From Pseudoxanthomonas broegbernensis (GTDB taxonomy: Bacteria; Pseudomonadota; Gammaproteobacteria; Xanthomonadales; Xanthomonadaceae), in contig NZ_JACHGU010000001.1 in the NCBI RefSeq assembly GCF_014202435.1, positions 682,001 to 746,000 on the forward strand: a stretch of DNA of 64,000 nt. Direction: 5' to 3'. A model generated the notes under the pieces. The model searched no databases and was not told the origin of the DNA. It saw only the letters and a program-made list of their open reading frames with translations. This document shows, in pieces, positions 9,432 through 35,300 of the stretch. A program made the translations under genes and the position numbers. The first letter of the stretch is position 1, and each line of letters begins with the position of its first letter.

Positions 9432-9469
9432 GCCGGAATAGCTCAGTTGGTAGAGCGGCGCATTCGTAA
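9432..9469 (+). pseudogene. tRNA-Thr(CGT) number 1, host copy, 5' half (positions 1-38)
   Basis: Acceptor strand GCCGGAA, D arm GCTC/GAGC, anticodon 5' stem GCGCA and loop TTCGTAA with anticodon CGT are all present. After the loop the sequence continues GGCGTAGGTCTAGTGCC, with no T arm or acceptor 3' strand. The missing half (TGCGT stem, T arm, TTCCGGC, ACCA) lies at 35263-35300. Joined, they give exactly 76 nt with a fully paired anticodon stem (GCGCA/TGCGT). The host gene was therefore cut in its anticodon loop by insertion of 25.8 kb. Confidence 0.92.
9462..9469 (+). other. attL core of element A
   Basis: ATTCGTAA, the anticodon loop plus position 31 of tRNA-Thr, matches attR at 35255-35262. 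Base 39 is G here but T at attR, and T39 is needed to pair with A31 in the host tRNA. The crossover therefore lies within or left of this 8-bp core. The element side continues GCGTAGGTC, identical to the tRNA for nine more bases, and then diverges. Confidence 0.85.
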
Positions 9470-9517
9470 GGCGTAGGTCTAGTGCCGAAAGCCCCACGAA
9501 ATGCTGGACTTCTCGGC

Positions 9518-9550
9518 TGTTAGCAGTGCGCTAGTAAGGCTATAATAAGG
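9518..9550 (+). promoter_or_regulatory. Promoter of tRNA-Thr number 2 overlapping element A left arm sites
   Basis: TATAAT at 9541-9546 ends eight bases before tRNA number 2 begins (9555). A weak -35 candidate TGTTAG lies 17 bp upstream (9518-9523). The same bases form a pair of direct repeats, TAGTAAGG (9532-9539) and TAATAAGG (9543-9550), spaced 11 bp. An equivalent pair is found beside the integrase at the other end of element A (35118-35136). The repeats are probably integrase arm-type sites, so integrase binding could affect this tRNA promoter. Both readings are inferred from pattern. Confidence 0.6.
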
Positions 9551-9554
9551 TTTC

Positions 9555-9592
9555 GCCGGAATAGCTCAGTTGGTAGAGCGCGTCATTCGTAA
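9555..9592 (+). pseudogene. tRNA-Thr(CGT) number 2, element A copy, 5' half (positions 1-38)
   Basis: The acceptor and D arm are identical to tRNA number 1, but the anticodon 5' stem is CGTCA. The sequence leaves the tRNA after the anticodon loop (TGCGTAGCTGTTG). The matching 3' half, with stem TGATG, T arm, TTCCGGC and ACCA, is at 22747-22784. CGTCA pairs with TGATG (one G-T), not with the TGCGT that follows it here, which proves the partnership. It is the replacement tRNA brought by element A and later split by element B. Confidence 0.9.
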
Positions 9593-9594
9593 TG
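9583..9594 (+). other. attL core of element B
   Basis: TCATTCGTAATG is identical at 9583-9594 and 22737-22748, and flanking bases differ on both sides. The element-side sequence (TGCGTAG) matches tRNA number 1 better than its actual target, tRNA number 2 (TGATGAG). This suggests that its preferred target resembles the host copy already occupied by element A. Confidence 0.85.
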
Positions 9595-9698
9595 CGTAGC
9601 TGTTGCTTGGGGCCGCCCTACATTTTCCTTCAAATCAATATCTTATGCTGATTTGCGCGGGACTGGATGCCCAGTAAAACCCGGAAAATGGACAATCC

Positions 9699-9717
9699 GT
9701 TGCCACTCTGTTGCCAC
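9699..9717 (+). repeat. Element B left arm-type repeat pair
   Basis: GTTGCCAC at 9699-9706 and again at 9710-9717, spaced 11 bp. The same pair with the same spacing and orientation lies at 22669-22687, between the integrase start and attR. Matching repeats at both ends of an element with a tyrosine integrase fit arm-binding sites for its N-terminal domain. The pair also sits upstream of the tRNA number 3 promoter. Confidence 0.7.
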
Positions 9718-9753
9718 CGTAGAGCCGCACGGCTTGTTGAGGCGTATTTGTGC

Positions 9754-9783
9754 TTGTAGCAGGAAGCAGTGATCGGCGACAAT
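9754..9783 (+). promoter_or_regulatory. Probable promoter of the intact tRNA-Thr (number 3)
   Basis: TTGTAG (9754-9759) and GACAAT (9778-9783) are separated by 18 bp. The -10 ends nine bases before the first tRNA base. The match is moderate; the position is convincing because the tRNA must be expressed from inside element B. Confidence 0.5.
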
Positions 9784-9792
9784 GAAAGACCC

Positions 9793-9868
<76 letters not shown>

Positions 9869-9880
9869 GCGTCGCAAATG

Positions 9881-9905
9881 GCCCCGCGAAGTCGGGGCTT
9901 TTTTT
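9881..9905 (+). terminator. Rho-independent terminator of tRNA-Thr number 3
   Basis: Stem GCCCCG/CGGGGC around a six-base loop (9881-9898) followed by seven T residues (9899-9905), 12 bp after the tRNA CCA. The element-borne tRNA thus has its own promoter and terminator, making it a complete expression cassette. Confidence 0.85.
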
Positions 9906-10081: not shown

Positions 10082-10717
10082 ATGAGCCTAGTGAAATCCA
10101 AGCAACGCGTCGCCGACCACGGGGAGGTCTTCACTCCGCCGTGGATGGTCGAGGCGATGCTCGATCTGGTGAAGGGGGAAACCGAGCGGATCGACAGTCG
10201 GTTCCTGGAGCCGGCGTGCGGGAGCGGGAACTTCCTAGTTCAAATCCTGCGTCGCAAGCTCGCCGCCGTCGAACTCAAGTATGGCAAGTCTGACTTCGAG
10301 AAGCGCCACTTCGCACTGCACGGGCTGATGTGTATCTACGGGGTGGAGCTGTTGCCCGACAACATCATCGAATGCCGCGACAATCTGCTCGAAGTCTTCG
10401 CGGAATACCTGCGCATTGACGACACGGACGACCTGTACCGAGCGGCCAGCTTCGTGTTGTCGCAGAACCTAGTTCATGGCGATGCCCTGACCATGCTCGA
10501 CAGCAGCAAGCAGCCGATCACGTTTGCCGAGTGGGGCTACCTCGGCAAGGGCAAGTTCCAGCGGCGAGACTTCCGTTTCGACGTGCTGACGCATTCGTCG
10601 GCTTTCAGTCAGGAGGGCAGCCTGTTTGCCCACCTTGGTAAGCATGAAATCTTCACGCCAGCCAGGACGTATCCGGCGGCAACCGTTGGCGAACTTGCGG
10701 TGGGGGCCGCCATATGA
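10082..10717 (+). CDS. N6-adenine DNA-methylase-like protein lacking the NPPY motif
   Basis: 211 residues with the SAM-binding half of a type I/Eco57I-like DNA methylase. It has an FTPPWMVEAML entry region and motif I EPACGSGNFL at about residues 42-51. A second Rossmann motif follows (GVELLPDNIIECRDNL). Where the catalytic NPP(Y/F) should follow FDV, it reads FRFDVLTHSSAF (about residue 170), so it probably binds SAM or partners without methylating. It overlaps the next gene as ATGA and starts a four-gene operon on element B. It could be a truncated methylase or a deliberate auxiliary subunit; tight coupling to an intact methylase favours the latter. Confidence 0.75.
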   Translation: MSLVKSKQRVADHGEVFTPPWMVEAMLDLVKGETERIDSRFLEPACGSGNFLVQILRRKLAAVELKYGKSDFEKRHFALHGLMCIYGVELLPDNIIECRDNLLEVFAEYLRIDDTDDLYRAASFVLSQNLVHGDALTMLDSSKQPITFAEWGYLGKGKFQRRDFRFDVLTHSSAFSQEGSLFAHLGKHEIFTPARTYPAATVGELAVGAAI

Positions 10718-12330
10718 GCGAACAAGTCGGATTCACCTTGCGCGGGCGCAACCCGGACGTGTTGACTTGCATTGCGAACCTCTCGAACGATGAAGTGTTC
10801 ACTCCGCCCGAGCTGGCAAACAGGATGCTCGACACCCTTGCGGCAGATTGGGCGGCCAAGAACGATGGGGCAGATATCTGGGCCGACAAGCGCGTCAGGT
10901 TCCTTGACCCTTGCGCAAAATCGGGGGTGTTCCTGCGCGAGATCACGAATCGTCTTACTCAAGGACTTGCGCACGAAATCCCCGACCTTTCCGAGCGCGT
11001 GGACCATATCCTCACCAAGCAAGTGTTCGGTATAGGTATCACTCACCTAACGAGCTTGCTTGCGCGACGAAGTCTTTACTGCTCTAAGCACGCAAAGGGT
11101 GAGCATTCCATCGCAAAGTCATTCCAGAGTGATGACGGCAACATCTGGTTCAAACGCCAGAGGCACACATGGAGTGAAGATAGATGCACATACTGCGGGG
11201 CTAGTAAGAAATCGCTTGACCGTGGCGAAGGTGCGGAAACTCATGCCTATGCGTTTATTCACACGGACAACATCAAAGCTCGGATCGCCGAGTTTTTCGG
11301 AGGCGACATGCAGTTCGATGTAATCATTGGAAACCCCCCGTACCAGCTCGGCGATGGCGGTGGCGGCGGCGGCGCGTCGGCTACCCCAATCTATAACTTG
11401 TTCGTGGATGCGGCGTTGGCACTGGAGCCTCGTTATGCGGTGATGATTACGCCGTCGAGGTGGTTCTCGGGTGGCAAGGGGCTGGACGACTTCCGTGATC
11501 GAATGTTGCGTGATCATCGTTTTGTAAAGTTGGTTGATTTTCCGCAGCTATATGACGTGTTTCCTGGCGTAAAAATTCGGGGTGGTATCTCCTACTGGCT
11601 GTGGGGAAGAGAACATGACGGCGGGTGTGAAGTCGTCACTATGATCGGCAATGAGGTCGTCGGACAGCCCGTAGTGCGAAAGCTGGATGCCTATGACGTT
11701 CTGGTTCGCAGAAACGAGGCTGTGCGGATACTTGATAAGGTGGCGGGATACCGAGTGAAAGGCAAAGCCGAGGCGAGCCTTGGCGGGCAAGTTTCGGCGA
11801 GAAAGCCGTTTGGGCTCACGAACCAACGCGGTAAGCCGACAACAACTGGCGTCAAGAACCCTGTTCTTGTTTACGGCAATCAGATCACGTCCTATCTGCC
11901 GAGAACCGCGATCACCAACAACGCAGACTGGATTGATAAGTGGAAGGTTTTACTCGTAAAGGCTCATGGTACAAGTGGGCGTGATGACGTCACCATTCTT
12001 GGCGAGCCGGTGGTGGCTGCGCCAGGTTCGGCATGCACGGAGACGTATCTCGTTATTGGTGTTTGCAAGTCAGAGGACGAGGCGCGGAACCTTGCCGCAT
12101 ACATGAGGACACGGTTCGTGCGGTTCCTTGTTTCGCTGCGAAAAATAACGCAGAACATCACGCGAGACTCTTACAAATTCGTGCCGGCGTTGCCCATGGA
12201 TCGTGCATGGACAGATAAGGCCTTGTTCAAGCGTTATGGGATTGATGAGGACCAAATTGCTTTCATCGAGTCCTTGATCACTGAGCGGCCCGCCAATGAC
12301 GCGGCAGGCGACGAGGCTGACGATGAGTAA
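10714..12330 (+). CDS. Eco57I-like N6-adenine DNA methyltransferase
   Basis: 538 residues. Motif I is FLDPCAKSGVFLREI (about residues 63-77) and the catalytic NPPY sits in FDVIIGNPPYQLGDG (about 200-214). Between them lies a possible zinc-binding insertion (LYCSKHAKG, RCTYCGAS). The C-terminal half (ARKPFGLTNQRG, NPVLVYGNQ) resembles target-recognition regions of Eco57I-type methylases. It presumably protects host DNA by adenine methylation. The ATGA overlap upstream and the 8-bp overlap with the helicase gene downstream show one coupled operon. GC content is visibly lower than in the host genes. Confidence 0.85.
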   Translation: MSEQVGFTLRGRNPDVLTCIANLSNDEVFTPPELANRMLDTLAADWAAKNDGADIWADKRVRFLDPCAKSGVFLREITNRLTQGLAHEIPDLSERVDHILTKQVFGIGITHLTSLLARRSLYCSKHAKGEHSIAKSFQSDDGNIWFKRQRHTWSEDRCTYCGASKKSLDRGEGAETHAYAFIHTDNIKARIAEFFGGDMQFDVIIGNPPYQLGDGGGGGGASATPIYNLFVDAALALEPRYAVMITPSRWFSGGKGLDDFRDRMLRDHRFVKLVDFPQLYDVFPGVKIRGGISYWLWGREHDGGCEVVTMIGNEVVGQPVVRKLDAYDVLVRRNEAVRILDKVAGYRVKGKAEASLGGQVSARKPFGLTNQRGKPTTTGVKNPVLVYGNQITSYLPRTAITNNADWIDKWKVLLVKAHGTSGRDDVTILGEPVVAAPGSACTETYLVIGVCKSEDEARNLAAYMRTRFVRFLVSLRKITQNITRDSYKFVPALPMDRAWTDKALFKRYGIDEDQIAFIESLITERPANDAAGDEADDE

Positions 12331-14863
12331 GCCAATCGATGAAGTCCTCGCGCCTAAGCCGGCAGCACGACCACGCATTTACGCCTATTCCATCGCTGAC
12401 TCCGCGCATAAGGGCCAGTTGAAGATCGGTCAGACCACGCGCGACGTGAAGAAGCGTATCGCCGAGCAGCTCAAGACGGCGGCGATCAAGAACTACAAGA
12501 TCGAACTGGATGAGTTCGCTGAGCGGGATGACGGCAGCACCATCCGCGACTATGAGGTGCGTGCCGCACTTGTCAAGAAAGGCTTCGAGAACACAACGCT
12601 GGAGTGGGTTCGCTGCACCGTCAAGGACGTGAAAACCGTCTTGACCGAACTGCGCACAGGCCAGAAGTTCACTGGTACGCACAGCGACACCTTCCCCATG
12701 CGTAAAGAGCAGGCTGAAGCCGTTAGGCTGACGCACGACTATTACCGCTCTCGTTGGGCAGAGGACAAGCGTGCGGTTCCGCGCTTCCTGTGGAACGCGA
12801 AAATGCGCTTCGGCAAGACCTTCACGTCCTACCAGCTCGCCAAGGCAATGAAAGCCAAGCGCGTGCTGGTGGTGACGTTCAAGCCGGCAGTCGAGGACGC
12901 GTGGCAGGCCGACCTCGAGAACCACGTCGATTTCGACGGCTGGCAATACTTGTCCAAGTCGTCTGGGCGCGACCCGAATGACGTTCACGATAAAACACCT
13001 GTCGTCTATTTCGGGTCATTCCAGGACTTGCTAGGTCGCGACAAGGCGACTGGCGCAATCAAGCCCCGGAACGAGTGGCTGCATGAAGTGAACTGGGACT
13101 TGGTGGTGTTTGACGAGTACCACTTCGGCGCGTGGCGGGATACCGCCAAGGAGCTATTCGAGGGCGAAGAAGAAGCCGAGGCCAAGAAGGAGGCCAAGCT
13201 CGAGTATGCGGCCGGCCTCGAGGAGGTGAACGACGACCTTGGCGTGCTGTCGGAGAAGGAAGCCGACTTCCTGCCGATCACCACCAAGGCGTACCTCTAT
13301 CTCTCCGGCACGCCGTTCAAGGCGCTGGCGACCGGCGAGTTTATCGAGGAGCAGATTTTCAACTGGACGTACACCGACGAGCAACGGGTCAAGGAGGAAC
13401 ACGCCACCTATCATGCGGACAAGTGGAACCCTTACGGGGCGCTGCCGCAGATGCGGCTGCTGACCTACCAGATGCCCGACGAGCTCCTGGCCATTGCCAG
13501 CGCGGGCGAGTTCGACGAGTTCGACCTCAACGAGTTCTTCGCTGCTACCGGCACCGGCAAGGCGGCGAAGTTCAAGCACAAGACCGACGTCCAGAAGTGG
13601 CTGGACATCATCCGGGGCGCGTACATGCCCAAGGTGGTCGAGCACCTGAAGACCGGTACCAAGCCGCCTTTCCCGTACTCGGATAGCCGACTGCTGCCGT
13701 ACCTGCAGCATTCGTTCTGGTTCCTGCCCAATGTGGCTGCGTGCCACGCAATGAAGAACCTGCTGGCCGAGAAGCACAACGTCTTCTGGCACGACTACGA
13801 GGTGATCGCCGCAGCAGGTGCTGGAGCCGGGATCGGACTTGAAGCGCTGCCGCCCGTGCGCAAGGCCATTGGCAGCGGGTTCGATACGAAATCCATCACT
13901 CTGTCCTGCGGCAAGCTGACGACGGGCGTCACCGTGGCGCAGTGGTCGTCGATCCTCATGCTGCGCAACCTGAAGTCTCCGGAAACCTACTTCCAGGCCG
14001 CGTTCCGCGTGCAGTCGCCGTGGTCGATCAAGAACCCGAACGGCGACAACCCGAACGAGGAGGAAATCCTCAAGCCGGCGTGCTTCGTCTTCGACTTCGC
14101 GCCCACGCGCGCCCTGCGCCAACTATCCGAGTACGGGATCGGGCTGTCGCCGAACGAACCGAACCCGGAAAACGCGGTCAAGGAACTGGTGTCGTTCCTG
14201 CCGGTGCTGGCGTATGACGGCGCGAACATGACACAGATCGACGCCGGCGGCATTCTCGACATTGCGATGGCCGGCACGTCTGCAACGCTGCTGGCGCGCA
14301 AGTGGGAAAGCGCGCTGCTGGTCAACGTGGACAACGACACCCTGCGGCGAGTCTTGAACGATCCAGATGCCTTGGCAGCCGTCGAGCGGATCGAGGGATG
14401 GCGTTCGCTTGGCGACAACGTCATCGAGACGATCATCAACAAGAGCGAAAAGATCAAGGCGCTCAAGAAGAAGGCGCAGGAAGGCAAGCTGACGAAGAAA
14501 GAGCAGAAGGAACTCTCAGACGAAGAGCGGGAGTTCAAGAGCAAGCGCAAATTGATCCAGGAGAAGCTGATCAAGTTTGCCACCCGCATTCCGGCGTTCA
14601 TGTACTTGACCGATTTCCGCGAGAACACGCTGCAGGACGTGATCACCAAGATCGAGCCTGACCTGTTCAAGACGGTCACCGGATTGACGGTGAAAGACTT
14701 CCACCTGCTGGTGCGCTTGAAGGTGTTCAACACCGAGCAGATGAACCAGGCGGTGTTCGCATTCCGCCGCTACGAAGACGCCTCGCTGCGCTATACCGGC
14801 ATCGAGAGCCACAAGGGGCTGACCCACTACGGCCTGTATGACACGGTGGTCGCGAAGGAATGA
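12323..14863 (+). CDS. GIY-YIG/T5orf172-like nuclease fused to a superfamily 2 helicase
   Basis: Probable restriction or effector subunit of the operon, 846 residues. The start at 12323 overlaps the methylase stop. The N-terminus (about residues 18-50, IYAYSIADSAHKGQLKIGQT) is a GIY-YIG-like nuclease domain. The helicase follows, with motif I KMRFGKT (about 160), a DEYH box (about 263) and motif III SGTPF (about 328). The C-terminal third is highly charged (KKKAQEGKLTKKEQKELSDE). A helicase plus nuclease next to methylases is the logic of type I/III-like restriction, here with GIY-YIG in place of a PD-(D/E)XK nuclease. The exact system type cannot be assigned from sequence alone. Confidence 0.8.
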   Translation: MSKPIDEVLAPKPAARPRIYAYSIADSAHKGQLKIGQTTRDVKKRIAEQLKTAAIKNYKIELDEFAERDDGSTIRDYEVRAALVKKGFENTTLEWVRCTVKDVKTVLTELRTGQKFTGTHSDTFPMRKEQAEAVRLTHDYYRSRWAEDKRAVPRFLWNAKMRFGKTFTSYQLAKAMKAKRVLVVTFKPAVEDAWQADLENHVDFDGWQYLSKSSGRDPNDVHDKTPVVYFGSFQDLLGRDKATGAIKPRNEWLHEVNWDLVVFDEYHFGAWRDTAKELFEGEEEAEAKKEAKLEYAAGLEEVNDDLGVLSEKEADFLPITTKAYLYLSGTPFKALATGEFIEEQIFNWTYTDEQRVKEEHATYHADKWNPYGALPQMRLLTYQMPDELLAIASAGEFDEFDLNEFFAATGTGKAAKFKHKTDVQKWLDIIRGAYMPKVVEHLKTGTKPPFPYSDSRLLPYLQHSFWFLPNVAACHAMKNLLAEKHNVFWHDYEVIAAAGAGAGIGLEALPPVRKAIGSGFDTKSITLSCGKLTTGVTVAQWSSILMLRNLKSPETYFQAAFRVQSPWSIKNPNGDNPNEEEILKPACFVFDFAPTRALRQLSEYGIGLSPNEPNPENAVKELVSFLPVLAYDGANMTQIDAGGILDIAMAGTSATLLARKWESALLVNVDNDTLRRVLNDPDALAAVERIEGWRSLGDNVIETIINKSEKIKALKKKAQEGKLTKKEQKELSDEEREFKSKRKLIQEKLIKFATRIPAFMYLTDFRENTLQDVITKIEPDLFKTVTGLTVKDFHLLVRLKVFNTEQMNQAVFAFRRYEDASLRYTGIESHKGLTHYGLYDTVVAKE

Positions 14864-15798
14864 GTGGCATCCTCCATGCGACCACGGAAGAGATCATCGC
14901 CCAGAGGTTCCCTGGTCGCGTCGTCCTGTCGCCAGAGGAAGTGGCAGAGGTTTGGCGCGGTTCGCGCTCGCGGCAGGCCGTCGGTACGATCCGCAAGCGG
15001 CTCACGCGTGGGACGCTGGTTCCAGGCCTGAAGAAGAACGGCGGCAGGTGGGAAGTCCCGGTCGCAGGGCTGATCAAGGCGGTCGAGAGATTGACATCAG
15101 GCGCGGACGAGGAAGACGAAGAGGACGCAGCGCCAGTTCACCCACAGGCTGCACCGCCAAGCGGTACGCGCCGCCGCGCCATTGGTCCGCGCATGTCTGA
15201 CACGGTTGGGTTCTGGAGCGAGGTGTTCGCTGCGCTCGACCGCCTCGAGGCAGAACGGATGCGCGCAGAACTAGGCGCGACCGTAATGGGGTGGAAGTGG
15301 ATCAGAGCCGAGGAGCACGAAAGAATGGTGCGCCAGGTCATGAAGGATCCTCCCGGCAAGACTTACACGGACGACGAGCTTGCCGTCCTTGCGGGCCGGG
15401 GACTTCGCACACTGAGAAATTGGCGCAAGGCCGGAACCGGCCCCAAGCACAGCACGAAGAAGGTTACAAAAAGAGTCTCGAAGAAGCGCACGCTGGACGT
15501 GAAATACACGGAGATCATCTACACGCAGGCCGACCTTGTGAAGTGGCTGAAATCACGCGACCTCATGGAGAAGAGCGGCTTCATGATGTGGAACACGGAT
15601 GAAGCGGGGCACGTCGCCAGAACGGGCGACCGGGAGACCGGATCCCTGCTCGATCTGCTGCAATGCGAGCACGCAAGCAGTAGGAGCTTGGCATGGGCGA
15701 TGGCGCTGTATAGCCATCGGGTTGCCGATGATCTTGACGACGCGGCGTGGAGGTTGGCAGCTATGCCGCTTGAAATCGAGCAGCCACGCGTGTTCTGA
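14860..15798 (+). CDS. Winged-helix-like protein of the restriction operon, function unknown
   Basis: 312 residues, coupled to the helicase gene by an ATGA overlap. Residues about 20-75 (LSPEEVAEVWRG, TIRKRLTRGTLVPGLKK, GGRWEVPVAGLIKAVE) look like a helix-turn-helix/excisionase-type DNA-binding domain. An acidic linker (ADEEDEEDAA) follows. The middle contains a second helix-turn-helix-like segment (YTDDELAVLAGRGLRTLRNW) and a lysine-rich stretch. It may supply DNA recognition or control for the system. No catalytic motif was recognised. Confidence 0.6.
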   Translation: MSGILHATTEEIIAQRFPGRVVLSPEEVAEVWRGSRSRQAVGTIRKRLTRGTLVPGLKKNGGRWEVPVAGLIKAVERLTSGADEEDEEDAAPVHPQAAPPSGTRRRAIGPRMSDTVGFWSEVFAALDRLEAERMRAELGATVMGWKWIRAEEHERMVRQVMKDPPGKTYTDDELAVLAGRGLRTLRNWRKAGTGPKHSTKKVTKRVSKKRTLDVKYTEIIYTQADLVKWLKSRDLMEKSGFMMWNTDEAGHVARTGDRETGSLLDLLQCEHASSRSLAWAMALYSHRVADDLDDAAWRLAAMPLEIEQPRVF

Positions 15799-15803
15799 CC
15801 TGG

Positions 15804-15897
15804 CGGCAACATTCCCAGATCTGTTTATTGCTGGGCCGAAGTCCGCGAGGCTTTGGCAGACTTTTTTCCACCCACCGGCAACATTCCTCAATCTGTT
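15804..15897 (+). repeat. Two direct repeats CGGCAACATTCC-N3-ATCTGTT, 72 bp apart
   Basis: Copies at 15804-15825 and 15876-15897 follow immediately after the four-gene operon and precede the next methyltransferase gene. The outer blocks are identical and the three-base spacer differs (CAG, TCA). They are possibly operator sites for a regulator of the downstream gene; the role is unknown. Confidence 0.6.
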
Positions 15898-15967
15898 GGG
15901 ATCGAGTGCTGGGTCCACCCCGAATGATGGCGCCGACCCTCGCATTTCGCGAGCTAGGAGAACCGCC

Positions 15968-17305
15968 ATGACCAACCGTACCGCCCGCCGCTCGGCTTCG
16001 AGCACCCGCACCGCCCGCCGCTCGGCTTCGAGCGCCCGCACCACTTCGACCGCCCGCTCGGGGTTCGGGAAGGGGCGGCCTCGCCATGCCTCGCCGGTTC
16101 CGCCGGCACCCGGCTCGCTCAACCTGGGCAAGTTCCAGCTGGACACCGCCAACAAGGGCAACGGCATCACGCTGCTGCGGACGCTGCCGGAGAACGCGGT
16201 CAAAACGGCGTTCTTTGATCCGCAGTATCCGGGCGGCGTGAAAAACTGGAAGAAGCTGCGCGCGAAGGGCAACAACATCCAGAAGCGCCGCGCGGAGCTC
16301 CCGCAGATGAGCGAAGCAATCATCGAGCGGTTCTTCCGCGAGCTGGCCCGCGTCATCGCACCGTCGGGGCATGTATTCCTGTGGGTGGACAACTTCCACG
16401 CGCGCACCGGGATTTCGCACTGGATTGAGGGCACGGACTTCGAGATCGTGGACAAGATCGTCTGGGCCAAGGGTATGACGACTGCGGAGAACGGCGCTGT
16501 TGGCGGCAGCGGCAAGATGGGCCTTGGCTCGCGAGCACGGCGCAGTTCCGAGGAACTGTTCGTGCTTCAGAAGCTCCCCAAGCGGGTCGAGGGCTGCTGG
16601 ACGCGGAAGAACATCCGCGACGTGTGGATGGAAAAGGTCGATACGAAGGCGCACGTCCACGCCAAGCCGATGGAACTTCAGAAGGCGTTGATCGAAGCCA
16701 CCACGCAGCCTGGCGATCTGGTGCTCGATCCGTGTGCAGGCAGTTTCAGCGTGATGGACGCGGCGCATGCGCTTGATCGCCGCTTTATCGGCTGTGATCT
16801 GGGAGGCGGCAAGCGCCGCCCGGTCATCGCAACCGAGCAGGAGCTGGCGGAGGCCATGCGCGTCTCGAAGACGGGCACCGCAGCGAGGTGCCGCGCCAAA
16901 GCGAGGCTGATGTCGGTGAAAGCGGCCGAGACAGCGGCAGCCAAGCCGAAGCGTTCGGCGGCGGTTCGGCCGAAGCCGGTGGCGAAGCGCAGGCCCTCCG
17001 CCGCGGCCAAAAGTGCGTCGACGGTGTCGCGTGCCAGCACGTTGAAGTCGGTGGCCAAGACGCGGCGCGCAGCGCCGGCAAGGCCGAAGACAACCAGGAA
17101 GGCGGTATGCAAGGTCAGCCCTCCCCAGCTTCGGGCGTACACATTGCCCCGCGACCTCCTGGATGGCGACTCCTTCGTCCTGGTACCCATGCCGGTTCAG
17201 GTCCTCGACATGCTAGCGGCAAACCAGGCGGCGTGGTCCAGTTCCTCTACCCCGCCTGGTCGGCGTCCGGGTGCCCGGACGCTTGCGGGACCGGTCGCCG
17301 AATGA
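15968..17305 (+). CDS. DNA methyltransferase with histone-H1-like basic tail
   Basis: 445 residues. The start at 15968 was chosen as the first in-frame ATG after the upstream repeats. The N-terminus has a duplicated low-complexity unit (TARRSASS, twice). The catalytic core has the beta-class motif order: FFDPQYPGG (DPPY-type motif IV, about residue 83) before VLDPCAGSFSVMDAA (motif I, about 252). The tail from about residue 305 is rich in K, A, R, S and P (KPKRSAAVRPKPVAKRRPS), like histone H1 or AlgP-like DNA-coating proteins. It may be an orphan methylase for element DNA, with the tail giving non-specific DNA binding. Confidence 0.8.
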   Translation: MTNRTARRSASSTRTARRSASSARTTSTARSGFGKGRPRHASPVPPAPGSLNLGKFQLDTANKGNGITLLRTLPENAVKTAFFDPQYPGGVKNWKKLRAKGNNIQKRRAELPQMSEAIIERFFRELARVIAPSGHVFLWVDNFHARTGISHWIEGTDFEIVDKIVWAKGMTTAENGAVGGSGKMGLGSRARRSSEELFVLQKLPKRVEGCWTRKNIRDVWMEKVDTKAHVHAKPMELQKALIEATTQPGDLVLDPCAGSFSVMDAAHALDRRFIGCDLGGGKRRPVIATEQELAEAMRVSKTGTAARCRAKARLMSVKAAETAAAKPKRSAAVRPKPVAKRRPSAAAKSASTVSRASTLKSVAKTRRAAPARPKTTRKAVCKVSPPQLRAYTLPRDLLDGDSFVLVPMPVQVLDMLAANQAAWSSSSTPPGRRPGARTLAGPVAE

Positions 17306-17559
17306 GGTCGCGGATCGTGCCAGTCGCTCAGGATGGCGGCGCGTGGCGTCGTCATCCCTGGGCGGAACCGTGTAGCGTGAACCTTGCCGTTCCTTGCGTC
17401 AGCGGCACCACGTCGCCGAGCGCGGCCAGTGAACGACTGGCTGCGCACTCCGCAAGCGTTAGCTGCTCCACTTCGTTCCGCCCCTTCGGGTGCGGGCTGC
17501 GCCGGTCGCCAGTCGTGTGGCTGGCCCACGGCGGCGCGGTGCTGCTGCGGAGAAGCGAA

Positions 17560-20750: not shown

Positions 20751-21026
20751 GGGACGGCGTAGCCGTCCCGTGTCGCCGGGCGTTAGCCCGACGACAGGCC
20801 CCAGGCTCCCGCCTGTGGCCCGCGGTCATCGCTGGTGCGCTGACCGTCGCCCGGGTCGCTCCCGCTTCCCCCTGCGTCGCTGGGCGCGACACAGGGGCCG
20901 GGCGGCCTCTCTACGCCCCGTTGCTACGCGCCAGGACTTCGAGAGGGCACATTGTCGAGCAGTGCCACGGGTGGCACGCACCACAATGTGCTTCAGCTCG
21001 ATCTTGCGGACGGAACCCGGTCCGTC
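20751..21026. repeat. Cluster of at least six hairpins between the two recombinase genes
   Basis: Inverted repeats run almost end to end: GGGACGGC/GCCGTCCC (20751-20769); TGTCGcCGGGC/GCCCGaCGACA (20771-20796); GGCCcCAGGC/GCCTGtGGCC (20797-20820); CGGTCA/TGACCG (20823-20846); CCCCTGcGTCG/CGACaCAGGGG (20869-20897); CACATTGT/ACAATGTG enclosing GTGCCAC/GTGGCAC (20948-20990); GACGGA/TCCGTC (21009-21026). Three of them have one mismatched C at a similar place in the arm. This looks like DNA meant to fold as single strand, or a tight set of terminators. No gene is supported here. Confidence 0.7.
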
Positions 21027-22736: not shown

Positions 22737-22748
22737 TCATTCGTAATG
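22737..22748 (+). other. attR core of element B
   Basis: TCATTCGTAATG is identical to 9583-9594. To its right the sequence continues as the 3' half of tRNA-Thr number 2. Confidence 0.85.
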
Positions 22749-26415: not shown

Positions 26416-27804
26416 TCAGACCCACACCACGCGCTCATCGCGCGGCATCCGCGGTCCCGGCGTAAAGCTGGACTGCTGGACGCGCCCGCCGGACTCGCCC
26501 GCGATCGCATAGCTCGTTGCGTCCAATGCGTGATCGTTCGCCTTCGTGTCCACGTCGTCAGGGATGCGCGAATCGCGCGGCAGGCTCGGGACCGTCGCCA
26601 GCCAGAACCGGCACCGCGACGCCACGAAAAACTCGCCGTTCACCATCAACTGCTTCAACTGCTCGAAGCGCGGCACGCGCGGGCCTTTCCTCGCCGGGCT
26701 CACGCGAACACCCGCGGCCCGGAACAGGTCCGATACGCTCGCCTCCATGCGCCCAGCGGTGCGCGCCTCCGCCGCGGAGTCGATGACGCCCCGCGCGCGA
26801 ACGCCGTTCCGACGCGCCACCTCGTGGAGCTTCGGCGCGATCTGTCCCGGCGTGCGGCCCGTCCCGCGGGCGAGGTTCCGCGGATCGTATTCAACGTGTT
26901 CGTCATAGATCACCCACGCCCCGCGCGGCATCACGCGGTCATCAGGCAAGCGAACGTCCACGGCGAGCTGCCCAGCGAGAACCGCGGCCATCGGCGCGGC
27001 GCTGCCCCAGTCAATGGACAGCTTCAACGTGGCGAAGAAATCCGGCGGAACGTCGTGGTGGTCGAACACCATCTTGCCCGCGTCCCATATTCCTTGGAAG
27101 AAATCGCCGACCATTTCCTCCCACCGCCCGTACCTCATGGCCTTGTAAAGCGCCGGGTCCGTGCGCGCGAGAATCTCGAAGTTCTTGCGGTACGCGGTGG
27201 GGAGGTGCGGGTTATCGTCCAAGATGGATGGGGCGTACACCCACGTATTCCCCTCGAACTCGAAAGGCATCCACGGCTCGCGGCCCGTAACATACCGCTC
27301 GGCGAGCGCGCCGTGATTCGAGCCGCCCGGATTGGCGGCAAGCACCATGCGAAGTGGAACGCCCGTGCCGCGCAACGAAAGGCCGAGTTGGTCGATGACT
27401 TCCATCGTCGGCGCTTCGCCGCTTTCGTCGCAGCAGATGAGCGAGAAATTCATGCCCTGCGCAACGTCGGACAGCGCGGATGCGGATTCGACGTGCGCGA
27501 GCTGGATCACCGCGCCGTTCGGGAGCCGGAACACGGCATCGTTCTGGTTGTAGGCAATGTCGCGCCCATAGGCAGAGCGAAGCAGTGCGCGCAGCTCCTC
27601 GCCGAATTGGAGAAGCGACTTCAACCGGCGGCGCGTCACGAGGACCCGGGCGCGGTTCTTGTATTGGTCGCAGTGGCGGAGGATCAGGAATTGCAGGGCC
27701 ATCGACTTGCCGCCACCGCGGCCGCCGCCGAGAAAAACAAAGTGATCCTCCGGGACGGACAGGACCTGCGTCTGGAACGGCGTCGGACGAATCTCAACGC
27801 TCAT
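26416..27804 (-). CDS. Phage terminase large subunit (ATPase/nuclease)
   Basis: DNA-packaging motor. 462 residues with the ATPase first: Walker A GGGRGGGKS (residues 26-34), Walker B LICCDE (about 122-127), and a coupling motif in MVLAANPGG. The RNase H-like nuclease follows, with acidic residues in LSIDWGSAAP, GVIDSAAEARTAGR and NDHALDATSYAIAG. Full length and motifs look intact. It overlaps the small-subunit gene by 11 bp. A complete packaging motor in an element without capsid or portal genes is unusual. Confidence 0.9.
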   Translation of the reverse strand: MSVEIRPTPFQTQVLSVPEDHFVFLGGGRGGGKSMALQFLILRHCDQYKNRARVLVTRRRLKSLLQFGEELRALLRSAYGRDIAYNQNDAVFRLPNGAVIQLAHVESASALSDVAQGMNFSLICCDESGEAPTMEVIDQLGLSLRGTGVPLRMVLAANPGGSNHGALAERYVTGREPWMPFEFEGNTWVYAPSILDDNPHLPTAYRKNFEILARTDPALYKAMRYGRWEEMVGDFFQGIWDAGKMVFDHHDVPPDFFATLKLSIDWGSAAPMAAVLAGQLAVDVRLPDDRVMPRGAWVIYDEHVEYDPRNLARGTGRTPGQIAPKLHEVARRNGVRARGVIDSAAEARTAGRMEASVSDLFRAAGVRVSPARKGPRVPRFEQLKQLMVNGEFFVASRCRFWLATVPSLPRDSRIPDDVDTKANDHALDATSYAIAGESGGRVQQSSFTPGPRMPRDERVVWV

Positions 27805-29643: not shown

Positions 29644-29658
29644 GGTTCGCTCCATTTC

Positions 29659-32094
29659 TTAAAAGGGCGGCTTCTCGTCGTCGCCGCGGCTCGGGGGTGC
29701 AACATCGAGTTCATTCTGCTGTGGGATCGTCTCGGATTCAGCGACCGCAGGCCACGTCGCCGGGAACTTCGCGGCGTCCCACTTGGTGCGCATCGCCGCG
29801 AGCGAGGGCAGTAGGAACCCGCGTCCGCCGCCACCGCCGCGCCGGTACTTTGTCGCGCCGAGCATGGTCATCAGTTCGCTCACGTCGTTACCGGAGACGT
29901 GTTGTTCACCGTGGCGAGAGCGGAGCCAGACCGATGCGGCTATGCGAAGGCTGTCCGTCGAGACAAACGGCCCCTTCTCCGGCAGGTTCTTAAGCTCGGG
30001 GAATTCGCCCACGCAAAGTAGGTCGTACAGGTAGGCGTCGAGTCCGGTCAGGCTGGCGACCTTCTGGCGCATCAGCGCATCCGTCTGCGGGACGCTCCGG
30101 CGTGGATGCCAGTCGCGCAGATCCATCGCGAGGAGGTCGAACAGCATTGCGGCGAGTCCGCCGCCGTCGAGTTCGGCGACAAGCGCGTTCCAGTAGGCCT
30201 GGTCGCCTTGACGCGCGCCGGATACGTCGAAGACAGCGAAGCGGCGTTCGTCGTCACCGGCAGGTACAACCCATTTTTCGTTGGACGCCATGACGATATG
30301 GAGGTAGTTCGGCGACATGACCGCGTTTTCGCCCTTGCCTTCGATCAACAGTTGCGGCTCCGTGACGAGCCCCTTGAGCCGCGATTCCGCAGCCTTGTCG
30401 CCGGGCGCAATCGCTTCGTCCGCGAACATCAGGCAGCAGTCGCGCAGGTGAAGGTTGAAATCGCCGGTGAGGTGCTTTGAACTGCGGATGTGGAGGCCGT
30501 GTTGCCCGAATAGGTCCTTGACGGCGCGCGCGAAGATGCCCTTGCCGACGCCCCGACCACCGCGGAAGACAAGCGCCACTTCGGCCTGACGCGCCGGGTT
30601 CTGGACCGCCCACGCCGTCCAGCGCAGGATGTAGTCGGCGTGTTCGTCGTTACCGTTGGCAAGGACAGCGCGGACGTGTTCGCGCATCTTCGACCAGTCG
30701 CCCGGCTTCGGCTCCATTGCCCATCCGCGCCATAGATTCTGGAAGCCGTTGATCTCGGCCTCTCCACCGGGGCGGAAGACCAAGCCGCGAATCTCGCGGC
30801 GGTGTTCGTGGTCAAGCCACCAGTCACCGCGCTTCATCAGCTTGGGCTTGCCGTTGTCGGAGAAGCCGACCACGACAGTCTTGTTCCGGTAGCGGTTGCG
30901 GAAATCCTCAAACGATTGCAGGTCAACGACCAGCCGCCCGGCGAGGTCGGAATGCTCATCGTCCGGCTCCACCTTCACCCACGATAGGACACGGACCTTG
31001 CCTTGTACGACAACGGCGTGGAGGCGATTCATTTCCTCCAAGATGGTGTCGTTGTCGGCAGCGTCGGCTTCCGCTTCGACTTCAGCGCGGGCCTTGCGTA
31101 CCTGCATCCATGCGTAGGCCGTCGGCTTCTGCTGGCGGTGGACATGCGCCGCGCCGCCGTTGTTCTTGTCGAGGATGGCGGCTGCGATTAGTTCATCAGG
31201 GACCCCGGCACGGGCAAGCCCGCAGCAGACCGCCCACGTCGCCTCCGATCCGGACCGATAGATGCGCTGGCCGTTGTCATCGGTCAATTGCTCGCCGTGT
31301 ACCAGCGCCTTGAGGGCTGCGCCCGGGAGCACCTTCCCGTTGGTCGTCGCCCACGCTTCGAGTTCGGCGACACCGTAGGGGCCAGCCGGGACCGGGACGG
31401 GCTTCTGCGTGGCGCGAGGGGCCTTCCTGCTGGCGGGGGCTTCGGCGCGTGCGGTCGGGGCCTGCTTGAAGGCGGCGAGCGGATACGGCTCCGCAGCGTG
31501 CCAGTCATACAACCTCGTCGGAGCCGGTTCGCGCCCCTTCGCCCGCTTCTTCGCGTTCGGCCAATTCGTCAGCCCGCCGGGAAGGCGCATTATCCTGTCG
31601 ATGTTGTGCGTTGCGTCGCCGCCGAGCTTGCGGGCGAGTTCGATGTTGTAGCGTTCGGCGTCTTCGACCTTCGCCGGGTCGCCGTTCAGTTCGATGGGCT
31701 CCGCAAGTCGCCAAAAGGCCTGCCATCCGCCGCCGCTGTCGATGATGAAAGACGGCGTCGGGATGCCGTCGGCGGCGAGTGAGCCGTTCAAGCGCTTGCG
31801 GATGCGCTCGCGCTCGGTGGCGAGGTCTTCCCCGGCGCGCGGGTCAAGGTCCACGTACAAGAATTCAACGCGGGCAATGTCGGCCTTCGTCGCCTTCTTG
31901 TCGATTGGGCGAATCGTGGGGTTTGGCGACCAATAGATATTCTTGGTCTTGTTCTCGTCTCTCGCCCATTGTGCGGCGTCGGCGGCGCTGACGAGTGTTC
32001 GCCCGGTGGTTTTTCCCGTAGCAGGATGAATCGAAACAAGTAGCCACGGACCACCGGGACGCCACAGGTTCAAGAAGTCTTCAAGCTCACCCAC
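29659..32094 (-). CDS. Replicative primase-helicase (RepB-like primase plus DUF5906 helicase)
   Basis: 811 residues from the GTG at 32094, which lies inside the end of the upstream HTH gene (8-bp overlap) and gives the natural start GELEDFLNLW. The N-terminal archaeo-eukaryotic-type primase has VEFLYVDLDPRAGED, PSFIIDSGGGWQAFWRL and RIMRLPG. After a linker, the SF3-type helicase has Walker A FRGGRGVGKGIF, Walker B CCLMFADEA and the conserved EPQLLIEGKGENAVMSPNY. This is the P4-alpha-like replication enzyme of satellites and prophages. It presumably acts on the GGTACG cluster downstream. Confidence 0.9.
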   Translation of the reverse strand: MGELEDFLNLWRPGGPWLLVSIHPATGKTTGRTLVSAADAAQWARDENKTKNIYWSPNPTIRPIDKKATKADIARVEFLYVDLDPRAGEDLATERERIRKRLNGSLAADGIPTPSFIIDSGGGWQAFWRLAEPIELNGDPAKVEDAERYNIELARKLGGDATHNIDRIMRLPGGLTNWPNAKKRAKGREPAPTRLYDWHAAEPYPLAAFKQAPTARAEAPASRKAPRATQKPVPVPAGPYGVAELEAWATTNGKVLPGAALKALVHGEQLTDDNGQRIYRSGSEATWAVCCGLARAGVPDELIAAAILDKNNGGAAHVHRQQKPTAYAWMQVRKARAEVEAEADAADNDTILEEMNRLHAVVVQGKVRVLSWVKVEPDDEHSDLAGRLVVDLQSFEDFRNRYRNKTVVVGFSDNGKPKLMKRGDWWLDHEHRREIRGLVFRPGGEAEINGFQNLWRGWAMEPKPGDWSKMREHVRAVLANGNDEHADYILRWTAWAVQNPARQAEVALVFRGGRGVGKGIFARAVKDLFGQHGLHIRSSKHLTGDFNLHLRDCCLMFADEAIAPGDKAAESRLKGLVTEPQLLIEGKGENAVMSPNYLHIVMASNEKWVVPAGDDERRFAVFDVSGARQGDQAYWNALVAELDGGGLAAMLFDLLAMDLRDWHPRRSVPQTDALMRQKVASLTGLDAYLYDLLCVGEFPELKNLPEKGPFVSTDSLRIAASVWLRSRHGEQHVSGNDVSELMTMLGATKYRRGGGGGRGFLLPSLAAMRTKWDAAKFPATWPAVAESETIPQQNELDVAPPSRGDDEKPPF

Positions 32095-32425
32095 GCACCA
32101 CCCCCTCACCACCAACAAGGCGACGGCGGAAGCGGAGGCGGTGCGCAGCGTCGAGGTCATCGACCGCCGCAGCGAAGTCGCGCGTGAAGGCAAGGCTTGG
32201 CTTGGCAGCGAGTTGGTTGGTCAGTTCGCGCTTCCGTTCGTGGATCAGCATCGCCGATACCTCGGCGAGCCTGGTGAGCCATTCAAGCGGAACCGTCGGA
32301 CGGCGCGTCCATGTGTTCAACGTCGAGACGCGAACGCCCATCGCTTTTGCGACGCGCGTCTGTGTACCGGCGGCAAGGAGGGCGGCAACAAGCAACGGGT
32401 GCGGTTCGGGGCGGCGCAGGATCAT
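32087..32425 (-). CDS. Cro/YdaS-like helix-turn-helix protein
   Basis: 112 residues. Residues about 11-50 (LVAALLAAGTQTRVAKAMGV, RVSTLNTWTRRPTVP) form a helix-turn-helix with the spacing of Cro/YdaS proteins. The C-terminal half is helical and basic. It overlaps both neighbours (ATGA with the upstream gene, 8 bp with the primase), so the early genes are one operon. Probable regulator. Confidence 0.7.
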   Translation of the reverse strand: MILRRPEPHPLLVAALLAAGTQTRVAKAMGVRVSTLNTWTRRPTVPLEWLTRLAEVSAMLIHERKRELTNQLAAKPSLAFTRDFAAAVDDLDAAHRLRFRRRLVGGEGVVRG

Positions 32426-33061: not shown

Positions 33062-33142
33062 GGTGCTTCCCGTCCATCGAAAAGTGCGATGGAGGGGAAG
33101 TTAGAGGCCGAGAAAATACCGAAAAAGCCCCCGCGAATTAGA

Positions 33143-33826
33143 TTATTTCCCGACTGCTGCTCGCTGCTTGGCGGCCACGTTCCGTAGCCACTGCTTGGCT
33201 ACGGACTTTTTGTAGATGGTATCCACAATGCGCCATACGATTTCAGCCGCAGCCGCAGCCGCAGCCGCAGCCGCAGCCGCAGCGGAGTATTCGGGTGCGG
33301 CGCGATACTTGCGACCGCCTGCCCCGTAGCCGACAGCGAGCATCAACGACATTAGCCATGCGCCCATCATGGCGCCGGGGCTCGCTGGGCGTCCGGCAGG
33401 TTTGCTGATGCGGGCGAGGATTACTTCCAGCCTAGCCGTTAACGTGTCGTGCTCGTCATCGGACACGATACCGTCAGCGTAGAGGGCGTTCAGCTCGGCG
33501 ACGGCGGCGCGCAGACTGCTACCGCGCGCGTTGTTCTCGTCATCTGCGTAGCCTGCAGTCGCGAGTTCCGACAAGTTGACTTCGGGGTTAGAGCCGGACA
33601 CGGTCAAGTAGTCGATGACTTGTCGCGCCATTTCTGAAGCGCGGCCCGGCTTGATGCCGAACTCGGCGTGCGCCTCCGCCCAAAGCTCAAGGCGCGCGGC
33701 GCTGCCCGGTATCGCGGCGGCGGCGGCTTCCACCTGGTCCAGCAGCTCGGAGAGGTCCGCCGGTGCGGATGCCTGCCGGGCAATGTCGCGTTTCGCGGAT
33801 TCGCGGGCCTGTTTCCGGGCGTCCAC
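33143..33826 (-). CDS. Hypothetical protein with hexanucleotide-encoded polyalanine tract
   Basis: 227 residues from the GTG at 33826, one base after the integrase stop and preceded by AAGGCGG. It has charged helical segments (DARKQARESAKRDIARQASA, SLRAAVAELNALYADGIVSD). A hydrophobic stretch (GAMMGAWLMSLMLAVGYGAG) could be a membrane helix. A run of about 13 alanines follows, then IVWRIVDTIYKKSVAKQWLR. The alanines come from a CAGCCG hexamer repeat at 33244-33285. Function unknown; it is the second gene of element A's operon. Confidence 0.6.
   Translation of the reverse strand: MDARKQARESAKRDIARQASAPADLSELLDQVEAAAAAIPGSAARLELWAEAHAEFGIKPGRASEMARQVIDYLTVSGSNPEVNLSELATAGYADDENNARGSSLRAAVAELNALYADGIVSDDEHDTLTARLEVILARISKPAGRPASPGAMMGAWLMSLMLAVGYGAGGRKYRAAPEYSAAAAAAAAAAAAAEIVWRIVDTIYKKSVAKQWLRNVAAKQRAAVGK
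33244..33285 (+). repeat. Hexanucleotide tandem repeat (CAGCCG)6 plus one imperfect unit
   Basis: Six perfect CAGCCG units (33244-33279) and a seventh CAGCGG. Inside the gene at 33143-33826 it encodes polyalanine. The unit is a multiple of three, so slippage would change protein length by two residues at a time without breaking the frame. Confidence 0.85.
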
Positions 33827-33827
33827 G

Positions 33828-35102
33828 TTATGCCGCCTTCTTCGCTGGGGCGTGCCTCTTCCCCGTGGGCTTCTCGCCACAGAGAGACAGCAGCTTGTCG
33901 GTGACCTGCTGCATCGGCTTCCGGAGGCGTTCGACTTCGGCGGAAATGTAGCCCGCGGTCACGTCCTGCTTGTCGGGTAGCGAGTGATTGACCAGCATTT
34001 TGATCGCATACGGCGAGAGGTCGAGCGATTCGGCGACGGTGATGAAAGTGTTGCGGAGCCCGTGAACGGTGAAAGGGACCGGAAGCACTTTGACCGTTTC
34101 GCCCTCCTTGTTCTTCTTGGGCTTTTCCGGTTCCGCGATGTGCCCGTGCTTCTTCTTGCTGTTCGCAGGGAACACCCAGCCCGACGCGGGATACAAAGCC
34201 TTCGCGTGTTCGCAGTCCCGGCGGCGCTTCAATAGGGCCAGCAGGAAGTCGGACAGTGGCAGGTAGAACGGTTCCTGCGACTTGGGCAGCGGGACAAGGA
34301 TGGCCTTGTTCGCGAAGTCCACGATGGGCGCGCGGGGGAATGCCGGGTCGGGCTCCCACCGGACGGCCTCGGCGTCAGACCGACGTAGCCCAGAGAACAG
34401 GACGAACAGATGCCAGTCGCGCCGGATTGGGTCTTGAAGGTCGTTGATATAGCCGTACCACGTCGATAGTTGGGCGCTCGGGATCGCGGCCTTGCGCCGC
34501 TTCTCCTTGTATCTGTCCACAGCAATGACGGGGTTTACGCCCAAGTCCTCGTGAACCTTGAGGGCGGTGTTGTAGACGGCGCTGAACACCCGGAAGGTGT
34601 GGTTGGCGACATAGGGGCCGTTCTCGGTGCCGATCTTCTTGTGCCGGTCGCGGCAGTCGGCCCGGGTGATTTCGCTCAGGGGGCGCTTGAGCCAGTCGGA
34701 AAGATACTGTTCGGAGAGGTAGCGGTAGTCGCTTGCCGTCCGCGGTGCCAACCCCCGGTTCGATGTGAGATGCGTTTCAAGGGCGTCGCCGTAGGTGACC
34801 GCACCCGGCTTCCGGCGCTCCTGATTCGGGTTGATGCCCTTCGTCATCTGGAAAAGGAGGGCGCGGGCCTCCTCCGTCGCCTGCTTCACGGTCAGGACGC
34901 CGTAGCGGCCCACTGTAGTCCGCACCGTCTTCCCATTCACGTCGCGCTGGACAAAGAAGGTCTTGGCCTTCGCGCCGACTAGGAGGCCGAAGCCCTTGAG
35001 GTCGGTGTCGAAGTAGAGGCGTTGGCGTTTCGCGTCCCCGGGCTGGACGAGGGGAAGCGCGGACACAGAAGACTGGGTGAGGCGTAGAGCGCTGGAGGTC
35101 AT
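33828..35102 (-). CDS. Tyrosine integrase of element A (P4 type)
   Basis: 424 residues. The N-terminal DUF4102-like arm-binding domain reads RLYFDTDLKGFGLLVGAKAK and TFFVQRDVNGKTVRTTVGRY. The catalytic boxes are SGLRRSDAEAVRW (Arg I), VHGLRNTFITVAE (H-x-x-R), VNHSLP and AGYISAEVERLR (Tyr). It is the first gene inside attR of element A. The 150-bp leader contains TAGTAAGG repeats matching those at the left end. It targets the anticodon loop of tRNA-Thr(CGT). Confidence 0.94.
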   Translation of the reverse strand: MTSSALRLTQSSVSALPLVQPGDAKRQRLYFDTDLKGFGLLVGAKAKTFFVQRDVNGKTVRTTVGRYGVLTVKQATEEARALLFQMTKGINPNQERRKPGAVTYGDALETHLTSNRGLAPRTASDYRYLSEQYLSDWLKRPLSEITRADCRDRHKKIGTENGPYVANHTFRVFSAVYNTALKVHEDLGVNPVIAVDRYKEKRRKAAIPSAQLSTWYGYINDLQDPIRRDWHLFVLFSGLRRSDAEAVRWEPDPAFPRAPIVDFANKAILVPLPKSQEPFYLPLSDFLLALLKRRRDCEHAKALYPASGWVFPANSKKKHGHIAEPEKPKKNKEGETVKVLPVPFTVHGLRNTFITVAESLDLSPYAIKMLVNHSLPDKQDVTAGYISAEVERLRKPMQQVTDKLLSLCGEKPTGKRHAPAKKAA

Positions 35103-35117
35103 CGGGCACCACCGGAT

Positions 35118-35218
35118 TAGTAAGGCAGTAGTAAGGGCCGCGGTTAGGCCCGGATAGCCGCCCTACTAACTCTATAGGGCGGAAACGCCGTAACCATAGT
35201 GGCTCTCATGCCTTATTA
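35118..35218. repeat. Element A right arm-type repeats
   Basis: TAGTAAGG at 35118-35125 and 35129-35136, spaced 11 bp and matching the left-end pair at 9532-9550. An inverted copy CCTTATTA (TAATAAGG on the minus strand) is at 35211-35218, and a near-copy CCCTACTA at 35161-35168. They probably bind the N-terminal domain of the element A integrase. Confidence 0.7.
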
Positions 35219-35254
35219 AAACCCTTTAGGTCGCCGTAGAGGCCGGGGCTAAGG

Positions 35255-35262
35255 ATTCGTAA
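35255..35262 (+). other. attR core of element A
   Basis: ATTCGTAA, identical to 9462-9469, followed by the host tRNA continuation TGCGTAGGTCG. Confidence 0.85.
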
Positions 35263-35300
35263 TGCGTAGGTCGTAGGTTCGATTCCTATTTCCGGCACCA
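35263..35300 (+). pseudogene. tRNA-Thr(CGT) number 1, host copy, 3' half (positions 39-76)
   Basis: Anticodon 3' stem TGCGT, T arm, acceptor TTCCGGC and ACCA. It pairs with the 5' half at 9432-9469 in both the acceptor and anticodon stems. It is followed by the host terminator at 35308-35344. Confidence 0.92.

Follow-up and report, generated by a model that had tools for sequence, protein, structure and literature searches.

How a tRNA gene stays available to the cell when mobile elements enter it one after another is the question raised by a 64,000-nucleotide stretch of the Pseudoxanthomonas broegbernensis genome (contig NZ_JACHGU010000001.1, positions 682,001 to 746,000), called the window below and used for all coordinates. 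An earlier note on this DNA had proposed that two elements are nested here through successive tRNA-Thr(CGT) genes. The reading we favour, with a probability of about 0.87, is that the window holds two nested integrative elements, A and B, each of which splits a tRNA-Thr(CGT) gene at the anticodon loop and carries a whole gene that is likely to replace it.

Two nested elements in split tRNA-Thr(CGT) genes

A single intact tRNA, a tRNA-Thr(cgt), was called by ARAGORN in the window (Table 1). Its anticodon loop, ATTCGTAA, occurred on the forward strand at 9462, 9585, 9823, 22739 and 35255, and was not found on the reverse strand of the window. The half starting at 9432 and the half starting at 35255 rejoined into a 76-nt gene that ARAGORN called as tRNA-Thr(cgt), and the halves at 9555 and 22739 gave a second 76-nt gene with the same call. 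Stem pairs (acceptor/anticodon/T stem, maximum 7/5/5) were 7/5/5 in both of these true pairs and 7/2/5 in both crossed pairs, while window halves crossed with the intact gene reached 6/2/5 or 6/3/5. Since the true pairs rejoin and the crossed pairs fail, the order is 5' half of A, 5' half of B, whole gene, 3' half of B, 3' half of A: element A lies in the native gene and element B in the gene carried by A. Chance as the origin of the pairing was ruled out by the comparison of true and crossed pairs. The 5'-half pattern occurred at three places in the P. broegbernensis genome, all within this locus, and searches with the 5' and 3' patterns found no further tRNA-Thr(CGT) copy there.

The rejoining tests and loop positions bear out what the earlier note had described: two split genes with their 3' halves in reverse order, each pair rejoining to a perfect 76-nt tRNA and told apart by its anticodon stem, with B inserted in the gene of A. 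The 3'-half starts that it gave, 22747 and 35263, are the first bases past ATTCGTAA; with the loop included, the halves begin at 22739 and 35255. Its two 5' halves stood, and a third 5' segment, that of the intact gene, had to be added.

The tRNA-Thr(CGT) locus in the genus

Sixteen other genomes of the genus (one under the title Pseudoxanthomonas sp. BIN6) were compared. Fourteen had a single intact gene with the native stem, and two (G008 and G009) had a one-level version of the locus, in which the native 5' half is followed after 147 or 155 bp by a whole gene and then, approximately 12 kb further, by a 3' half. One neighbour matched window positions 7960-9322 (mechanosensitive-channel-like) in 11 of the 14 single-gene loci (67-72% identity), and the other matched positions 37999-39284 in 10 (89-92% identity). 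The latter encodes KaiC-type ATPase and ChlI domains, and we take its product to be RadA. The islands occupy the site of a plain tRNA gene in the relatives.

Approximately 2.6 kb between the tRNA and the RadA-like gene of the window (35350-37999) are absent in the genus relatives. The four frames in this segment had no Pfam match, and it is possibly the remnant of a further insertion. The native gene pointed toward the mechanosensitive-channel gene in seven genus loci (L004, L006, L008, L009, L013, L014 and L037) and away from it in six (L005, L007 and L015-L018); L009 and L018 have the same upstream promoter region in opposite orientation relative to the flanks.

Recurrence in other genomes

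GTDB species genomes were scanned for two tRNA-Thr(CGT) 5' halves 81-141 bp apart, a range that excludes the spacing of element B itself; tRNA-Thr(CGT) was the only tRNA scanned. The scan returned 79 stretches with paired 5' halves, which by record title belonged to Alphaproteobacteria (39), Betaproteobacteria (13), Gammaproteobacteria (10), other Proteobacteria (2), Firmicutes-like bacteria (14, one titled 'uncultured bacterium') and Bacteroidota (1). Stem pairing divided them into one broken half followed by a whole gene (70), two broken halves and a whole gene (3), four broken halves and a whole gene (1), two broken halves (1), stretches cut by their end (3) and an ordinary tandem (1). An intact gene stood last in 74 of the 79, and in four of these 74 (L104, L130, L136 and L139) it followed two to four broken halves.

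The 3' halves were counted in 50 loci, drawn from 66 of the genomes. At least two 3' matches were present on one contig and strand in 26 of these 50 genomes, with a nearest distance of 2.6 to 27 kb. Twenty-nine loci (L141-L169) were then fetched, comprising 25 of the 26 two-match genomes together with four genomes of the same family as the window (G008, G009, G142 and G065). An orphan 3' half was found in 28 of the 29, 2.8 to 19.7 kb from the 5' half, 25 of the loci having been chosen because a second 3' match within 20 kb was already known. This 3' half rejoined with an orphan 5' half in 28 of 28 elements (no fewer than 6 of 7 pairs in the acceptor stem and 4 of 5 in each of the anticodon and T stems), and at least one crossing with the whole gene failed in 15 of the 28 (acceptor below 6 or anticodon stem below 4). 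The spacing of the 5' segments was 123 bp in element A, in Arenimonas and in two viral contigs, 134-137 bp in many Rhizobiales, and 153-155 bp in many beta- and gammaproteobacterial loci. The left end of element A was 79% alike over 87 bp in Arenimonas (L165).

Some loci departed from this layout. Mesorhizobium sp. Root554 (L155) had two broken 5' halves and a whole gene with the outer 3' half only; the inner 3' half was sought in this locus and not found, a state that would fit the loss of part of the outer element by recombination between two right ends. In a Bacteroidaceae stretch (L117), damage to the broken copy was confined to the 3' acceptor strand, which places the break close to the T stem and so at another site. 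A third layout was seen in L170 and L171: the integrase stood next to an orphan 5' half, the intact gene followed 14.6 or 16.7 kb downstream, and neither locus yielded an orphan 3' half. L172 resembles a remnant of 930 bp in which the promoter is duplicated. Elsewhere in the family, in other genera (L040, L042, L043, L046-L050 and L052), the resident gene had element-type anticodon stems without scars and was preceded by a gene that we take, by motif, to be ispH. Element copies may have replaced the host gene in this group, and one idea is that such genes beside ispH originated by deletion between two 5' halves.

Integrases of the IntA and IntB types

Both elements encode a tyrosine recombinase at their right end, with the start codon 153 bp (IntA) or 89 bp (IntB) from the junction. 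The catalytic set of tyrosine recombinases is R-K-H-R-H-Y, and the catalytic residues were kept in IntA and in IntB across aligned relatives. The two proteins are only distantly related as tyrosine recombinases. Of the 29 fetched loci, 26 encoded an IntA relative (E 6e-60 or better), and a further locus (L169) had an IntA-related fragment (E 1e-21). The integrase start codon was 171-172 bp from the junction in seven beta- and gammaproteobacterial elements. In 16 alphaproteobacterial elements, the integrase gene was located inside the element, and nine of the 16 had a right end consisting of TACGAAAAACA and then ATTCGTAAT.

Four viral contigs were recovered by IntA alone, without the tRNA pattern. 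Two of them extended to the far end and carried there a broken and a whole gene, whose 5' segments were 123 bp apart, and in both the broken half rejoined with a 3' half at the integrase end. These two contigs are an independent test, and both have the whole-gene layout. The other two had no 5'-segment match; such records may be fragments.

An integrase tree with 54 entries included 23 whole-gene rows, made up of the window and all IntA-family integrases of the 26 whole-gene loci except L152, L154, L156 and L157 (22 of 26). These rows needed 2 label changes, compared to 10.3 when labels were shuffled (0 of 500 as low). The tree carries a long-branch warning, its intruder L208 is one long branch, and the label test falls short of one origin. 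IntA relatives were present in 21 of 369 genomes of the class (P. broegbernensis included). By our reading, a tRNA 3' segment lay near the integrase start in 20 of 23 such places, and several tRNA types were involved. At the far end, 9 of 18 had an intact tRNA for the same amino acid, and a separate 5' half was not found there (by a blunt scan, run on 16 of the 18); this is the layout of textbook islands, whose element attachment site (attP) carries the 3' half of the gene and rebuilds the target. The attP of a Legionella fallonii plasmid with an IntA relative (34%) likewise includes the 3' half of tRNA-Thr(CGT), as in textbook islands. Two restoring islands on tRNA-Thr(CGT) in the family of the window had more distant integrases (L173, E 1e-8; L175, no IntA match), and the 5'-half-type islands L170 and L171 gave no match to IntA. 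Because IntA relatives elsewhere restore their target, whole-gene carriage appears to be a trait of part of the IntA family, so far tied to tRNA-Thr(CGT). A protein search with IntB recovered 20 relatives at 38-87% identity, Stenotrophomonas maltophilia included.

A serine-recombinase version in Clostridia

In 15 of the 79 stretches, a broken half kept the whole anticodon arm and continued as far as GGTC; 13 of these were Firmicutes-like and the others were L079 and L117. Three Clostridial loci from three of these genomes (L181, L182 and L183) encoded large serine recombinases with Resolvase and Recombinase domains (Pfam), the L181 and L183 proteins sharing 49% and 83% identity with the one from L182. 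The Flavonifractor locus (L182) has its 5' half, whole gene, recombinase gene and 3' half within 11.3 kb. The attP, deduced from the two inner element ends, was in L182 an inverted repeat about GGTC at 16 of 20 positions (0 of 20,000 random pairs were as good). The deduced attP of L181 matched at 12 of 20 positions (21 of 20,000 random pairs) and, with shorter arms, at 7 of 15 (1,186 of 20,000); the chromosomal attachment site (attB), used as a control, gave 7 of 20 (4,531 of 20,000). The left half of L181 was without the D-arm part, and a 3' half was sought in L183 and not found. The attP and attB of large serine recombinases share almost no sequence. Consequently, a carried fragment could hardly rebuild the gene, and a whole gene would be the natural solution.

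Clostridial arrays of left-end scars were present in L177 (226-1361, with four broken halves in a row) and on the reverse strand of L180 (920-1630), together with copies that had the D-arm part exchanged for other sequence and the anticodon arm kept.

Proposed mechanism and alternatives

We propose that the integrase acts on the anticodon loop of the resident gene and recombines this DNA with a short attP core of approximately 8-18 bp around ATTCGTAA. The target would not be rebuilt, because attP is without the rest of the gene; instead, the whole gene next to attP would supply the tRNA in place of the broken one, transcribed either from a promoter of its own or from the native one that remains upstream. 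The replacement gene keeps the same loop and would therefore be a fresh target, so that stacking may be an advantage of this mode. Element B would have used the carried gene of A in this way, and precise excision would restore the split gene.

The native promoter-like site remains upstream of all three 5' segments, and a similar sequence was present upstream of the native gene in genus relatives. In element A, a TATAAT ends eight bases before the carried tRNA gene. The earlier note had credited each replacement gene with its own promoter and terminator. The terminators stood, as terminator-like hairpins (Table 1); a promoter of its own is suggested for the gene of A and unsupported for that of B.

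Several results weigh against two elements that replace their target with a whole gene. The promoter scan listed the native site and none for the gene of B, and both the expression of the replacement gene and the excision of the elements are predictions from sequence. Among the 50 genomes examined for 3' matches, 24 had a single match (19), two on different contigs (3) or none (2). In 13 of the 28 elements, the carried gene was too like the target for the crossing test to discriminate. No 3' half was present in the 19 kb fetched for L168, and no IntA relative was found in the fetched loci L148 and L168. Among 348 genomes of the order, no IntB relative was found except in P. broegbernensis itself, and context searches did not place the IntB relatives in any genome. 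As IntB relatives were found in no other genome, the mode of element B rests on this one window.

An unlikely reading is that the carried gene serves some other gain than repair, with tRNA-Thr(CGT) dispensable and the copy a landing site for later elements, a tRNA that evades anticodon nucleases or mere cargo. ACG is probably also read by tRNA-Thr(TGT), element B has restriction-modification-like genes, and stacking is seen in the window and in L104, L130, L136 and L139, as such a function would allow. However, the last gene of the array was intact in the 74 stretches even though its 3' half lay outside the search pattern, the carried gene was always near the broken 5' half within the range searched, and several long frames of the window commonly use ACG for threonine. 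That these are textbook islands, with the extra halves left by decayed copies of older islands, is very improbable. The textbook mode does exist at the same gene (L173-L175 and the L. fallonii plasmid) and its layout was seen among the IntA relatives inspected at the far end, but it leaves one displaced fragment, not 5' and 3' halves that pair with each other and shun the intact gene. The failed crossings with the whole gene, in 15 elements and in the window, speak against it, and for the window the pairing already contradicts it. An assembly error, or an old tRNA-Thr tandem broken by rearrangement, can practically be dismissed: one of the 79 stretches (Selenomonas, L129) is indeed an ordinary tandem of whole genes, but the genus relatives have one gene, the spacing tracks the element type, and the layout recurs in many unrelated assemblies, some of them complete.

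Whole-gene target replacement therefore appears to be a genuine mode, one that has evolved repeatedly and allows elements to stack. What the earlier note had expected was found in other genomes: empty tRNA-Thr(CGT) loci (the 14 genus genomes with one intact native gene) and islands that start with an intact gene beside a split one and bear an integrase (the 74 stretches that end in an intact gene, and the fetched loci with an IntA relative). Its claim that the target is destroyed and a whole gene supplied agrees with the rejoining, the empty and single-level genus sites and the 74 stretches. The suggestion of a general strategy gains support beyond that note from three recombinase types, that of B on one example. 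We consider it reasonably probable that target replacement adds a third mode of life in a tRNA gene to the restoration of 3' and of 5' halves, with at least three origins (the IntA family, the IntB type and the Clostridial large serine recombinases, a class considered not to target tRNA genes), that it lets elements stack, and that the tRNA-Thr(CGT) of many bacteria is an element-supplied gene turning over with the islands.

Comparison with known systems

Islands of the Islander class (tyrosine integrases, anticodon-centred) share with elements A and B a tyrosine integrase on board (here IntA and IntB), an anticodon-loop crossover and flanking tRNA pieces. They restore the target from an attP fragment, whereas elements A and B displace both halves and bring a whole gene with them. 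Instead of a fragment that rebuilds the gene, the junctions share the loop core only and the genes stay split; instead of a single displaced fragment and a regenerated gene, there are displaced 5' and 3' halves and a different whole gene. Islander drops candidates below 2 kb, so a 5' fragment 123-155 bp from a gene would be passed over. Islands that restore a 5' half (the 5'-fragment class of Islander, archaeal pTN3-like integrases, L170 and L171) also have an orphan 5' half upstream of an intact gene. However, the intact gene of L170 and L171 is at the far end, whereas in the window the whole gene adjoins the broken 5' half, and the element closes with a 3' half.

The Clostridial version has, like the Firmicutes large-serine-recombinase elements, Resolvase, Recombinase, zinc-ribbon and DUF4368 domains (a protein with the first two in each of L181, L182 and L183) and a deduced attP that is an inverted repeat about a very short core. 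It differs from them in its tRNA-gene target and in carrying a whole tRNA gene. Tycheposons have a tRNA gene at the end of the element and an integrase.

According to the available part of a review on archaeal recombinases, integration reconstitutes an intact gene, and the restoration of the original gene is said to be true of all integration events (PMC8371274). A database paper, as far as its text was available, describes tRNA-gene islands as restoring their target. The whole-gene layout was not described in the accessible parts of papers on an archaeal tRNA-disruption model (PMC3293823), partial tRNA genes (PMC9897764), S. meliloti hot spots (PMC11476347) and Mesorhizobium elements (PMC8627217). 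The titles and abstract openings returned by a literature search contained no description of whole-gene replacement, and an earlier description is possible. A 2020 conference paper reportedly dealt with S. meliloti islands in tRNA-Thr.

Whole-gene replacement breaks the restoration rule, and the usual island signature would pass over or misread such islands. It would account for stacked islands and orphan tRNA halves, extend tRNA targeting to serine recombinases and make a core translation gene swappable by mobile DNA. A further pointer is to recombinases for which a short tRNA-loop core suffices.

Features and cargo of the locus

Table 1. Features of the tRNA-Thr(CGT) locus in window coordinates (attL and attR, left and right attachment sites of the integrated element).
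Feature	Position	Strand	Evidence or remark
Native promoter-like site of tRNA-Thr(CGT), TTGGCC-17-TAGAAT	9371-9399	+	Consensus scan
Native tRNA-Thr(CGT) 5' half, attL of element A	9432-9469	+	Rejoining, stem pairing
Element A left end	9470-9554	+	TATAAT at 9541-9546; read from sequence
5' half of element A's own tRNA-Thr(CGT), left junction of element B	9555-9592	+	Rejoining, stem pairing
Element B left end	9593-9792	+	Position between junction and intact gene
Intact tRNA-Thr(CGT) carried by element B	9793-9868	+	ARAGORN; sole complete copy by pattern in own genome
Terminator-like hairpin and T run after the intact gene of B	9880-9899	+	Terminator scan
Element B cargo: DNA methylases, Eco57I-like and helicase proteins, RadC-like protein	10082-18033	+	Restriction-modification-like
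IntB, tyrosine recombinase of element B	21025-22650	-	Pfam PF00589, PHROG integrase, conserved catalytic residues
3' half of element A's tRNA-Thr(CGT), attR of element B	22739-22784	+	Rejoining, stem pairing
Terminator-like hairpin after the 3' half of A	~22799-22820	+	Read from sequence
Terminase large subunit-like protein, element A	26416-27804	-	Domain and PHROG searches
P4-family-like primase, element A	29659-32193	-	Domain and PHROG searches
IntA, tyrosine recombinase of element A	33828-35102	-	Arm-DNA-bind_3, PHROG integrase, conserved catalytic residues
Native tRNA-Thr(CGT) 3' half, attR of element A	35255-35300	+	Rejoining, stem pairing
Hairpin after the native 3' half	35305-35341	+	Directly beyond attR of A

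Element A is similar to P4-like phage satellites in its P4-family-like primase, its integrase and an excisionase-like helix-turn-helix protein. Unlike these satellites, it also encodes a terminase large subunit and a resolvase.

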